Shown in pieces: positions 18,255 through 55,066 of a stretch of 64,000 nucleotides of DNA. The stretch's first letter is position 1; each line of letters begins with the position of its first letter. Under the pieces are notes generated by a model, which saw only the letters and a program-made list of their open reading frames with translations, was not told the origin of the DNA and made no database searches. Source of the stretch: Patagioenas fasciata (taxonomy: Eukaryota > Chordata > Aves > Columbiformes > Columbidae); contig NC_092520.1 in the NCBI RefSeq assembly GCF_037038585.1, positions 122,668,001 to 122,732,000 of the forward strand. The letters run 5' to 3'. A program made the position numbers and the translations under genes.

Positions 18255-19085
18255 ATGATGGGCTCCACAACCTCCTTAGCCATCAGGGAAACAAAGAGTT
18301 ACAGCGATGTCAGCTTTTCCTCTCCACCTCCTTTGACTGCAGATGGGCTGGCTCCAGCTTCGAGCAGCATGGCAAAGGTGAAATGAGAGAAGCCTGGTAT
18401 GCATGGCAGGGAGAGCAGTTACGCTATTCTGGGTTAGGTTTAAGAAATAAGATTGATTTAGGACTCTGTTATTAGGTTTGTGAGAAGGTGTTTGTCAAGT
18501 CATCATGATACAGGTTCTCCCCTCCAGCCAGGTTTCTGTGTACAGCATACCAGCTCCACACGACCCTGAGCAGACTGCAGGGCAGGTAAGAGGCACCAGC
18601 TCAGCTTTACAGCAAGAGCACAGCAAATGATCTTTCTGCCCATTCTGGTGTGCAGTGACCTCTGTTTTTCATATGCAAATGGATCCTAATCAAAGTGATA
18701 ACAATTTTTGCCTGGACTTGCATAGCTTGAAATGCATGCTGCAAACAAGCAGATGAGAAATACGTGGATTTCGTGTGTGACATATCTGATAACATGAAAG
18801 ATGCTGTCTCAGTTTAAACCTCTCTAAAAACTAAAGGGACAAATATAATAAAATATGGCACAATAGCTCTTGTTTTGTTTTCTTACTAATTGATGCCTTC
18901 TTATGTCTTTCTCTAGGAAAGCCCGCACATTCACTACTGCCTGTCCTACCGAGAAGACTTGTGTCAGAAGTACCATTTCTTCAAGTGGATGAGGTTGTGT
19001 TTCTGGAGAAGGTGTCTTCTAGGAATATTGCCTATATTTTCTTTAATAGTTACAGTAATTGTGCTAGTCCTGCACTCTTCATTCT
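18255..19085 (+). other. Matriptase-like gene: cytoplasmic tail and membrane-anchor exons
   Basis: Exon 18255-18377 encodes 41 residues from ATG ATG, rich in Ser and Pro, and ends in phase 0 at AAAG|GTGAAA. Exon 18917-19085 encodes a Cys- and Arg-containing juxtamembrane stretch (FWRRC) followed by about 20 hydrophobic residues ([19 protein letters not shown]). Basic residues before the anchor and none after it fit an N-in, C-out type II protein. This exon ends in phase 1. Confidence 0.85.
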
Positions 19086-22000
19086 GTAAGTGTTACTCCC
19101 GGGTGTTGTCTGGATGGGGTGTGTATTTCCCACTTTGTAAAAGATTAGTAGGAAAGGCTCTGCACTAAGCAGCTGAGTGCATATTGCAGGTATAAAGGAG
19201 ATTTTCCTTCCTCCCTAATGTCTTTGCTAAGGCAACAAAATGAATAACAAATAGCAGTTGATAGTTGCGCAAGAATAAAGAAGGTATATATTTTATCTCT
19301 AATATTTTTTTTGTCTCTACTTGTGGATATCGTCATTATGACAACTGTCATCTTTCCCAAGAACTTATAGGGATTAACTGTACATCTTCTATTCACTTTT
19401 TCAAAACAGAAAACACTCCTTCCTAGATCTTAATTTTTTGTCTTTAAAATAGTCTCTCCAGAATGATAGCACTGCAAAAATTGGAATTTTAACAATTAAA
19501 GCTTTCTAGTACTAATATCTATCTGAATTTGTACTTCGTCCCTCTCCTTCTAGGCTTTACTTCATCAATGGGACTGACTCAGCGCTGTGGCTATTATTGT
19601 GCGTTTCTCTTAAGAACTAATGCCAAGGACAAATACACATTTCTGCAAACCTCTTGTTCTAGAATCTTTTCCATAATGTTATTAGGTCTGCTAAATTTTT
19701 TATCCTTTTCTTTTTTTTTTTTTTCCCTCAGCTCCAGCTTTCTCCTTTGTTTATATTGGTGGAAGTGTAGAAATTCCTAATTTGACTTATACAAATGATC
19801 TCCATGATCCAAAGTCACAGAAATTCCTTCTACAAGCAGAAGCAATCCAAAATTATGTAAGTTCCAAGATAAGTTTAGCAGTAATTTAAAAATATTTATT
19901 ACAGAATCAGATTGAGAATAGGGACAAGAGCTCAGTTAGTCAGTGTCTTTTTTTCTTCAAAGTAGTAAGTTTAAAGTTAGCAAGTGTTGTACACCTTTAG
20001 TAATGTAGTTAAACGATTGGGGCTGTGTGTCTCAGGGTAAGGCCAACATTTCCTAGGTAATAAAACCTGGGGATTTCAAGGTTATGGACAGATTATTCTT
20101 CTTAAAGGAATGAGGAGTTTATTTTTTATTTTGTTTTACTTTACTCAAGCACTCTTCCTTGCTACATTTTTCTCTTTGATTTTTTTTTTTTGAACTATAG
20201 CTCAAATTCAATGCTTAACTTTCTGTTTTGTTTTCCCTTATCCCCAACAACAATGCTTGCTTTCTTGCACTTCTTCTCTGAGTTCCTGTTTGTGAGATCA
20301 ATAGTTTCCTGGGTACATGTGAACAGCAGTTTTAAATACAAAGCAGTTCTCTGTTAGACTGCATTTCCCGAAAGAGCTAATCTAGTGTTTCAAAGCTGCT
20401 TTGTACACAGTCAATACGAGTTGTTTATGTCCAGATTACATACCAGAAATTTTAATACCAAACCAAAAATACAAATGTATTCGCAAAAATTTATTTTCCA
20501 TGGCTAATTATCAAGAGTTATCTCAATGGTCTTGAAATGTGGTATGACTTAAAAGTAATTTTTTTTAGTGGAAATGAATGCAAATTTTTGATCCTTATTT
20601 AATGATGGATAGTGCATGTATTATGGGAGCAGGTGAGAAAGGGGAAAAGAAGAAGTAAGACACATACTTTCTAGCATAAGGGATGATATTGACACTAAAA
20701 TGTAACAATTTTTACAAATGTTTTCCCATTGTCTGATTGTCAGCTTGCAGAATCATATGAATCTTCCTTCTTGGGAAGGTACTACTTGAAGTCTGTAGTG
20801 GCTGCTTTCAGGTATGTTCTGTTGCAGCATGTGGTATCAATTTGAGATATTAAATTGTGTTTGTCTTTTTTTTGTGCATTTTAAATCAGTCATCTGGAAG
20901 AATATGCAGATCTCTATAACAGGGAATGAAAAATACAGAAATGTACCTAAGTATATGAGCTAAGAGCTAAACTGATATTGTGATTTCTGTCTTACCTTGT
21001 AGAATCGGTGAGAGAAATGAGACCTGAATAATCCTGTCTTGGTTTGTGGATTACTTTGTAGTCTATTAATCTACTTTAGATTTTTGAAATCACAGTTCAG
21101 CAGGGTTTTTTCTCTGCGACTCGCAGAATCTTGTTTTGGTTTCGTCTATTTAAATGAAGTTGCATTTTAACTTCTCGAAACAAAACCTAACAGTATAATT
21201 TTGGGCAGAGCATTTCACTTAAGCTCCTGGTGAGAAATGTAAGTACACTGAGCTGATGGTGATTACTATCCTGACAGACTTTGAAAACTTCCGAGAGGTC
21301 AGTCCATAGGCAATTTTGAAAGAAACAGTGTGATTGACTGTCTTATTGAATCAGTTAAGTAACACTTTGTATATGCACACATAAATGTTATTTATTTTAA
21401 CAAGAATTGTATGAAATGTTTTATCAATGTATGGGCATAAAATTATATTGTCTTATGGTGTGAGACTCAACTAAAAATATTAAGGGAAATCTATCTAGAA
21501 CTGTAATATGGTCTTAGAAGTGTATGTAATAATTTGGTAGCAGGTTCTGTAAAAATTGTTGAAAGGATTTTCTATGAGGTATAGATTTCAACCTCAGTGT
21601 GTTGCTCTTTAAGCAACATATTTTTGAAGTATTTCTACTCTACATAAAATGCAGTTGTTAAACAAGAGAGCTTTCTGCCAGTGTGCTCAGATGCAACCAA
21701 AAATGTAGATCAGTGGAAAGTGTGTCCAAAACACTAATTAGAATGTATTTATGATGCATTTTTTTTCTTCCACAGTGAAGCAGAGTCCGGACTTAGAGCT
21801 TACTACTGGAATATGTTCTGGGCACCACAAGATATGGTTGCTTCTCTTAAAAAATTAACGCCAGTGATACAAAAAGAAATCAGTATTAAACAAGCAGCTC
21901 ATATGTTCAGTTCTTCTGGGGAGGAAGATTCTGATCTCATTGCAATGGAGATTTTTGGTAACAATGTACCTGTCATTTAATACTTACTTGGATTATTTTT

Positions 22001-54800: not shown

Positions 54801-55066
54801 TTTCAGAATAATTCTAGGCTAACACGTCACCATACTGGGTGAACCAGTAAGGTCTGCAATTAACTCATATTGATTTTTCTTGATACTCATATCAAGGCAG
54901 CAACAAGTCATGAGTTCCAATTCTCAGTGTAATTTTTTTTCCTTAGATATTGACAGGGTTCATAGAAAATGCAGAGTAAAAGTGTCAGGAAAGAATATGC
55001 TGAAATATCTAACTGAAGTGTAATTTTAATGTTAATAATATATTGTTTTATCTTCCAGCGAAATGA
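45819..55066 (+). CDS. C3orf52: C3orf52 orthologue (TTMP, TPA-induced transmembrane protein)
   Basis: Small single-pass type II membrane protein with one extracellular SEA-like domain; the human protein was named for phorbol-ester induction, and its gene is linked to hereditary hypotrichosis through a partnership with lipase H. Exons: 45819-45986, 48909-49032, 49589-49722, 50572-50642, 53848-54047, 55059-55066, all GT-AG and in phase. Recognisable shared segments with the human protein include CKLWM before the anchor, YTDED after it, [13 protein letters not shown], and DLTSLTL near the end. From ATG 45819 it has 234 residues; from ATG 45876 it has 215, nearly the human 217, and the second start aligns better with the human N-terminus. 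The last exon gives only Ser-Lys-stop; reading through into the intron instead gives a tail to 54145. Its neighbours are two TTSP genes whose anchor and SEA exons it resembles. Confidence 0.93.
48909..49032 (+). other. C3orf52: C3orf52 membrane-anchor exon
   Basis: It encodes FWKCKLWM followed by about 20 hydrophobic residues ([20 protein letters not shown]). Phase 0 in and phase 1 out, as in the membrane exon of the upstream protease gene, which also has an FW-basic motif just before the anchor. Confidence 0.9.
50005..50060 (-). repeat. Degenerate CR1 3'-end fragment
   Basis: The text AATAGAATAATTTAGGTTAG, followed by GGGACTTGTGAAAATCACC, resembles a reverse-oriented CR1 3' end (AGAATCATTTAGGTTGGAAGAGACC type). 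Short and diverged. Confidence 0.5.
51411..52748 (-). repeat. CR1 LINE with ORF2 reverse-transcriptase part and 3' end
   Basis: Largest CR1 copy in the window, about 1.3 kb, minus strand, in the fourth intron of C3orf52. It starts at 51411 with the 3' end (CACAGAATCACAGAATGTCA) and runs back into the ORF2 C-terminus. An open frame covering the thumb side of the reverse transcriptase has [18 protein letters not shown] and FADDTKLGG motifs. The CR1 match fades near 52748, after [12 protein letters not shown], the usual 5' truncation. The reading frame is broken between the RT part and the C-terminal part (frames 52159-52887 and 51749-52060), so it is not an active element. Confidence 0.95.
53216..53278. 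repeat. TC/TG-rich simple repeat
   Basis: CTCTCTCTGCCTCTTTGTG-type units repeated about three times, in the fourth intron of C3orf52. Confidence 0.75.
54349..54366. repeat. (TA)n microsatellite
   Basis: Nine or so TA steps in the last intron of C3orf52. Confidence 0.75.

Follow-up and report, generated by a model that had tools for sequence, protein, structure and literature searches.

The C3orf52 gene and its surroundings

The stretch of the Patagioenas fasciata genome analyzed here (the window; 64,000 nucleotides of NC_092520.1, positions 122,668,001 to 122,732,000) carries three genes in the order TMPRSS7, a matriptase-like protease gene that we label TTSP2, and C3orf52. All three lie on the + strand, and TMPRSS7 ends within the first 17 kb. 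An original prediction, made from the letters of the window alone, had described C3orf52 as adjacent to and co-oriented with the matriptase-like gene, and this arrangement was confirmed, with TMPRSS7 upstream in the same orientation. C3orf52, or TTMP, is the TPA-induced transmembrane protein. Gene names in the window follow the human proteins, and we take the gene to be the C3orf52 ortholog from its position beside TMPRSS7 and from the human sequence. Judged from its sequence, the product is most likely a short type II membrane protein in which a cytosolic tail and a single anchor are followed by a degenerate SEA domain like those of type II transmembrane serine proteases (TTSPs). The exons of C3orf52 and TTSP2 are models built from splice signals without a transcript; those of C3orf52 are as follows (window positions).

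45819..45986, + strand: exon 1, cytosolic tail; 168 nt, exit phase 0
48909..49032, + strand: exon 2, single membrane anchor preceded by a basic stretch; 124 nt, exit phase 1
49589..49722, + strand: exon 3, SEA part 1, with a TTSP-like G-x-F-E-L strand; 134 nt, exit phase 0
50572..50642, + strand: exon 4, SEA part 2; 71 nt, exit phase 2
53848..54047, + strand: exon 5, SEA part 3; 200 nt, exit phase 1
55059..55066, + strand: exon 6, the final 8 coding nt including the stop

The exon sizes and the exit phases 0, 1, 0, 2, 1 originally given for C3orf52 and the matriptase-like gene were all recovered from the splice signals, as was the tiny terminal exon with its stop codon. Exon 2 encodes one hydrophobic stretch with basic residues N-terminal to it (topology assigned by eye), and the ectodomain contains three N-glycosylation sequons.

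The ectodomain of C3orf52 resembles TTSP SEA domains

A comparison set was collected by running the Pfam SEA model (PF01390) over the same genome (1.45 Gb, 359 contigs), which gave 57 exon-level rows from 65 candidates, none of them in C3orf52. Exon models were built for 13 SEA domains of this one species, with exons chosen by a score of our own that combined SEA likeness with splice signals. They comprise six TTSPs (ST14, TMPRSS6, TMPRSS7, TTSP2, TMPRSS11a, and TMPRSS15), the first four of which form the matriptase-type set; six non-TTSPs (MUC16-like, C36a, C36b, C16, and two KIAA-like genes, named by eye); and C3orf52. Profiles and trees were made without TMPRSS11b, IMPG1-like, C30, MUC_C37, C1_963a, and C1_963b, whose sets of SEA exons are incomplete.

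Profiles were derived from these domains with C3orf52 excluded, and each yardstick domain was scored with profiles lacking itself. The C3orf52 ectodomain scored 31.8 bits with the profile of the six TTSPs (best shuffle 7.7), 27.6 bits with that of the four matriptase-type genes (best shuffle 11.0), and 22.0 bits with a profile of all 12 domains, and in each case none of 5000 shuffles scored as high. With the non-TTSP profile, it scored 1.6 bits, which 149 of 5000 shuffles reached. This contrast of 30 bits is what counts. The six TTSPs score 17.7 to 26.6 bits with the non-TTSP profile, and C3orf52 is thus unusually distant from the non-TTSP side. The comparison by hhalign gave 95.6% (E = 1.3e-8, ectodomain residues 37–134 of 134) for the TTSP profile versus 2.9% (E = 0.015) for the non-TTSP profile. 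In the PDB, the TTSP profile retrieved the TTSP SEA structures 9nrc, 8vis, 9p1c, and 2e7v. Within a set of 747 open frames (90 amino acids or longer) from the window and the SEA loci, C3orf52 took third place with the matriptase-type profile and fourth with the TTSP one, immediately after frames from the TMPRSS6, ST14, and TMPRSS15 loci, and 69th with the non-TTSP profile.

Matches to single domains point the same way. The best was ST14 (score 77, z about 9, 0/1000 shuffles as high; BLASTP E = 4.8e-6 in a 12-sequence set), followed by TMPRSS6 (57, 0/1000), TTSP2 (47, 2/1000), and TMPRSS15 (42, 13/1000). For the six non-TTSPs, 35 to 675 of 1000 shuffles scored as high, and no pair exceeded a z of 2.5. 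The residues that the original prediction listed for SEA part 2 and for the boundary of parts 2 and 3 (Y-x-SS...LGRY(Y/F) and F-S-(E/N)...Y...F..P) are indeed present in both C3orf52 and TTSP2. A strand-1 pattern, G-x-[FLVI]-[RQKE]-[VIL], occurs in five of the six TTSPs and in C3orf52 and in none of the six non-TTSPs; since it was first noticed in the alignment, it serves as a description and not as an independent test. Taken together, these comparisons support the view that the C3orf52 SEA domain has more in common with the SEA domains of TTSPs than with others, and its probable homology to the TTSP domains is supported by tests that are independent of intron phases.

SEA-domain trees place C3orf52 on the TTSP side

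The main tree contained 13 rows and 118 columns, and its root was not inferred. C3orf52 lay on the TTSP side (support 83/83, unstarred), grouped with five TTSPs to the exclusion of TMPRSS15 (85/86, unstarred). After removal of the two longest branches (MUC16-like and C16) and realignment of the remaining 11 rows, the split between C3orf52 plus TTSPs and the non-TTSPs received support of 98/95. The original prediction had named placement with mucins as one outcome that would overturn it, and C3orf52 fell with the TTSPs in both trees. In approximately unbiased (AU) tests, forcing C3orf52 together with MUC16-like gave p-AU = 0.059 and with TMPRSS15 p-AU = 0.12, and seven groupings with matriptase-type genes gave p-AU values of 0.20 to 0.26, none of these being the best tree. 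On these alignments, no particular TTSP is favored or rejected as the partner of C3orf52 (p-AU 0.12 to 0.26), and the tree by itself would not be enough to establish TTSP kinship.

Neighboring protease genes

TTSP2 lies directly upstream of C3orf52. Its features, together with the part of TMPRSS7 that falls in the window, are as follows.

18255..18377, + strand: TTSP2 exon 1, tail; 123 nt from the first of two adjacent ATGs, exit phase 0
18917..19085, + strand: TTSP2 exon 2, anchor; 169 nt, exit phase 1
19732..19856, + strand: TTSP2 exon 3, SEA part 1; 125 nt, exit phase 0
20744..20811, + strand: TTSP2 exon 4, SEA part 2; 68 nt, exit phase 2
21776..21957, + strand: TTSP2 exon 5, SEA part 3; 182 nt, exit phase 1
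22054..22092, + strand: TTSP2 candidate short exon of phase 1-1; 39 nt, one of six candidates listed
23342..23560, + strand: TTSP2 CUB-like stretch, assigned by eye; exon ends not set
33803..33910, + strand: TTSP2 LDLRa-like stretch, assigned by eye
35724..35906, + strand: TTSP2 protease stretch with RIVGG and AAHC
36611..36880, + strand: TTSP2 protease stretch with DIALL
38569..38700, + strand: TTSP2 protease stretch
41934..42074, + strand: TTSP2 protease stretch with GDSGGP
9093..16654, + strand: TMPRSS7, 3' part, with LDLRa and protease stretches

Both genes are of matriptase type. With RIVGG, AAHC, DIALL, and GDSGGP in place, TTSP2 looks like the gene of an enzyme. Two stretches of its protease part matched ST14 at 49% and 52% and TMPRSS6 at 44% and 54%, and ST14 was the closest of the own-genome matches to the protease of the gene (18255–42074). 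The anchor and SEA exons of TMPRSS7 precede the window (about C1:122658503-122663242). Mammals are not known to have a gene between TMPRSS7 and C3orf52, where TTSP2 sits. Frames resembling the reverse transcriptase of CR1-type retroelements were seen by eye at 22253–22486 (+), 39835–40149 (+), 51749–52084 (−), and 52159–52899 (−).

Intron phases and exon lengths of SEA domains

A SEA entry phase of 1 with exits 0, 2, 1 was found in all six TTSPs, in C3orf52, and in four of the six non-TTSPs (MUC16-like, C36a, C36b, and C16). Eleven of the 13 modeled domains, C3orf52 included, show this 1-0-2-1 pattern with a middle exon of 59, 68, or 71 nt. In the two KIAA-like genes, the phase-0 intron is present, and SEA parts 2 and 3 are continuous in one frame. 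How far the models were free to differ bears on this comparison. The SEA 2 phase was left free in ST14, TMPRSS6, TMPRSS15, TMPRSS11a, MUC16-like, and C36b, and the SEA 3 exit phase in ST14, TMPRSS6, TMPRSS11a, MUC16-like, and C36b. Phases were preset for TMPRSS7, for SEA 2 of C36a, C16, and IMPG1-like, and for SEA 3 of C36a, C16, and TMPRSS15; only phase 0 was sought for SEA 1 exits and only exit phase 1 for anchor exons. The phase-1 acceptor at the SEA entry of MUC16-like tied with a phase-2 acceptor. In MUC16-like and C36b, neither the SEA 2 phase nor the SEA 3 exit phase was preset, and these two genes suffice to show that the phases are not specific to TTSPs. A GC donor (ACAG|GCAAGT) appears to close the SEA 3 exon of TMPRSS11a, at about 5433–5596 of its locus read on the minus strand.

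The original prediction had read the five matching phases as a sign of a shared protease ancestor. One of the five, the phase-0 intron between tail and anchor, stands as TTSP evidence, whereas the other four are general to SEA domains. Intron phases as proof of protease ancestry are therefore ruled out, being common to non-TTSP SEA modules, and the SEA phases alone cannot separate protease from mucin ancestry. The TTSP-specific remainder is the phase-0 tail/anchor intron plus the apparent type II layout. This intron has phase 0 in C3orf52, TTSP2, TMPRSS7 (judged by eye from one acceptor), the best ST14 candidate, and all eight TMPRSS6 candidates listed. For TMPRSS11b and TMPRSS15, the best candidate has phase 2, and other phases were listed too; TMPRSS11a gave no candidate, and the start codon of TMPRSS15 may lie within its anchor exon. 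Because a single phase match has a one-in-three chance, the agreement is modest evidence.

Exon lengths and positions add further points of comparison. Among the models built, only ST14 and C3orf52 have a SEA 2 exon of 71 nt; it measures 68 nt in the other five TTSPs and MUC16-like and 59 nt in C36a, C36b, C16, and IMPG1-like. Both SEA-internal introns of C3orf52 fall on the same alignment columns as those of the TTSPs, in an alignment made without knowledge of the introns. The 39-nt candidate short exon of TTSP2 is the counterpart of a 36-nt phase 1-1 candidate after the SEA domain in ST14, and exon 6 of C3orf52 occupies the place of this short exon, its 8 nt being too short for a comparison.

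Two further loci of the SEA sample are recorded here. The MUC16-like array at C34:3859361-3882216 accounts for 17 first-SEA-exon matches among the 57 rows, the first 13 spaced 1.22 to 1.26 kb apart. At C1:96331001-96351000, two first SEA exons lie about 10 kb apart on the same strand, and later SEA exons were not found in that stretch.

Observations at odds with a TTSP-type origin

A number of results pull away from the idea that C3orf52 derives from a TTSP, and they are brought together here. A Pfam search with C3orf52 returned no family at E values up to 10 and thus no PF01390 (E = 9.7e-13 for TTSP2), and a phmmer search of the PDB sequences found no match. SEA part 1 of C3orf52 lies mostly outside the hhalign match and is 12 residues shorter than in ST14, TMPRSS6, TMPRSS7, and TTSP2; counted from the strand-1 glycine, the first SEA exon has 20 residues left, compared with 32 or 33 in five TTSPs. 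This shortening may explain part of the invisibility of C3orf52 to Pfam. The human protein presumably lacks the strand-1 glycine. With the all-12 profile, C3orf52 ranked only 40th of the 747 frames, behind many SEA frames.

The TTSP profile is also less exclusive than its name implies. The six non-TTSPs score 15.5 to 39.5 bits with it, and C36a (39.5) stands above C3orf52, so that such a score alone does not make a TTSP. The own-side profile scores higher in five of the six non-TTSPs (59.2 bits for C36a), the exception being MUC16-like (17.0 against 14.5). Single matches of C3orf52 to TMPRSS7 were weak (score 38, 46/1000 shuffles as high) and those to TMPRSS11a at chance level (211/1000). The ST14 SEA domain matched the mucin-type C36a with a z of about 10, nearly equal to its matches within its own subgroup; ST14 may thus draw matches because its SEA domain is conservative, and the best match need not be the sister. 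In the trees, support for the TTSP side stayed unstarred while MUC16-like and C16 were kept, the four matriptase-type genes did not form one group in the 13-row tree (TMPRSS7 pairs with TMPRSS11a), and forcing C3orf52 with the non-TTSPs was 2.95 log units worse and not rejected (p-AU = 0.117). The SEA phases 1-0-2-1, found also in mucin-type genes, mark a SEA domain and not a protease ancestor.

Other results concern the rest of the gene. The 'FW-basic' likeness between the anchors of C3orf52 and the matriptase-like gene, proposed originally, is at chance level, with 656 of 2000 shuffles scoring as high. The corresponding counts were 1875 for TMPRSS7, 1919 for TMPRSS6, and 1017 for TMPRSS15, and those for ST14 (137/2000) and TMPRSS11b (100/2000) are suggestive at most. 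Relic exons were sought with two CUB, four LDLRa, and eight protease stretches, taken from TMPRSS7 and TTSP2 only. In the last intron of C3orf52, its 3' flank, and the 20 kb that follow the window, the top hit reached 19.6 bits compared with 21.2 bits for the same stretch reversed, and between the end of TTSP2 and exon 5 of C3orf52, the best was 22.3 bits on the minus strand. The relic CUB, LDLRa, or protease exons looked for in the last intron and 3' flank thus did not rise above the level of reversed sequence, and no relic of the proposed loss of everything after the SEA domain was found there. No protease motifs were found in the window downstream of TTSP2. A protein search of the same genome (nine rows, 11 candidates scored) yielded no second copy of C3orf52; five of the nine rows lie in the gene itself, and the other four have E values of 0.217 or worse. 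Descent from the adjacent gene in particular was not singled out: ST14, the closest single match, lies on a different contig, and the tests do not separate the possible sources.

Origin of C3orf52

C3orf52 shares with matriptase (ST14) and TMPRSS6/TMPRSS7 the apparent type II layout, the phase-0 tail/anchor intron, and three SEA exons with exits 0, 2, 1. Unlike the matriptase subgroup, it has no CUB, LDLRa, or protease part and ends in an 8-nt coding exon. A TTSP is defined by its protease domain, and the C3orf52 reading frame stops 8 nt into exon 6. It resembles the Pfam SEA family in its match to the TTSP SEA profile and in its intron pattern but differs in that PF01390 does not report it. 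Four of the six membrane mucins and other SEA genes have its SEA phases, with a sequence signal that is weak or absent; the known members of this group are type I or secreted.

The explanation that we consider probable is that C3orf52 carries a degenerate TTSP-type SEA domain behind a membrane anchor and represents a matriptase-type duplicate kept up to the phase-1 intron after the SEA domain. A matriptase-type gene would have duplicated, one copy would have retained only the part up to that intron and lost its catalytic part, and a small terminal exon would now supply the stop. The interpretation given in the original prediction is thus partly supported, and origin from an adjacent duplicate with later loss is plausible. 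Synteny of C3orf52 with TMPRSS7 is stated in PMC6170504; if it holds, the two genes have been together since early bony vertebrates. So old a pairing would fit both the poor resolution of the tree and the absence of relics.

It is rather unlikely, although worth serious consideration, that the SEA domain is of TTSP type in a gene that was never a protease, being either an older anchor-plus-SEA form or a phase 1-1 SEA module shuffled behind an unrelated anchor, and that C3orf52 came to lie beside TTSP genes later. Phase-1 introns bound SEA modules in TTSPs and non-TTSPs alike, so that modules can be added or dropped without damage to the frame; moreover, no relic catalytic exon was found in the searched flanks, and the anchor exon shows no sequence kinship to those of TTSP2, TMPRSS7, TMPRSS6, and TMPRSS15. 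However, the best tree groups C3orf52 with five TTSPs and leaves TMPRSS15 outside, with the unstarred support and uninferred root noted above, the tail/anchor phase 0 and the anchor-to-SEA layout are as in matriptase-type genes, and the gene stands directly behind two of these.

An alternative that we regard as improbable holds that the SEA domain is of the general mucin or agrin kind and that its likeness to TTSPs reflects only the fold and the common SEA intron pattern. This agrees with the occurrence of the pattern in MUC16-like, C36a, C36b, and C16, with the scores of non-TTSPs on the TTSP profile, and with the AU test, which tolerates C3orf52 among the non-TTSPs. Against it stand the near-absence of signal with the non-TTSP profile (1.6 bits and 2.9%, versus 31.8 bits and 95.6%), the lack of any non-TTSP pair above z 2.5, the p-AU of 0.059 for pairing with MUC16-like, and the apparent type II layout. 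Hardly credible, finally, is a short orphan ectodomain without homology that resembles SEA by chance. The absence of Pfam and PDB matches and an identity of 22% at most would be expected in that case, whereas the 0/5000 shuffles, the rank directly behind TTSP frames, and the agreement of both internal intron positions with those of the TTSPs in the alignment would not.

Possible function and significance

At the SEA turn, the N-E-S-S of C3orf52 aligns with E-G-S-V of ST14. The G-S-V motif of ST14 is absent, and self-cleavage is consequently not expected. With this turn and no catalytic part, the role of C3orf52 is most likely that of a membrane-held binding module and not catalysis. According to PMC12715598 and PMC12098026, homozygous C3orf52 variants occur in recessive hypotrichosis, and C3orf52 is coexpressed with and binds lipase H (LIPH); PMC12715598 calls its exact function unclear. 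C3orf52 could serve as a SEA adaptor that is tethered to the membrane and binds secreted partners, LIPH among them, with the SEA segment perhaps forming the LIPH-binding face. That a protease gene was cut down to its membrane stalk, and that the matriptase-type SEA domain was recruited as a LIPH-binding module after the exons were lost, is a tentative proposal that we hold to be possible but somewhat doubtful. Among the literature matches listed, none assigned C3orf52 a SEA domain or linked it to TTSPs, InterPro and UniProt lying outside the scope of that search.

If true, the recruitment of a protease stalk would supply a molecular mechanism for C3orf52 as a hair-loss gene. The placement of its ectodomain among TTSP SEA domains offers a structural hypothesis and an evolutionary origin for a disease gene in which Pfam reports no domain here.

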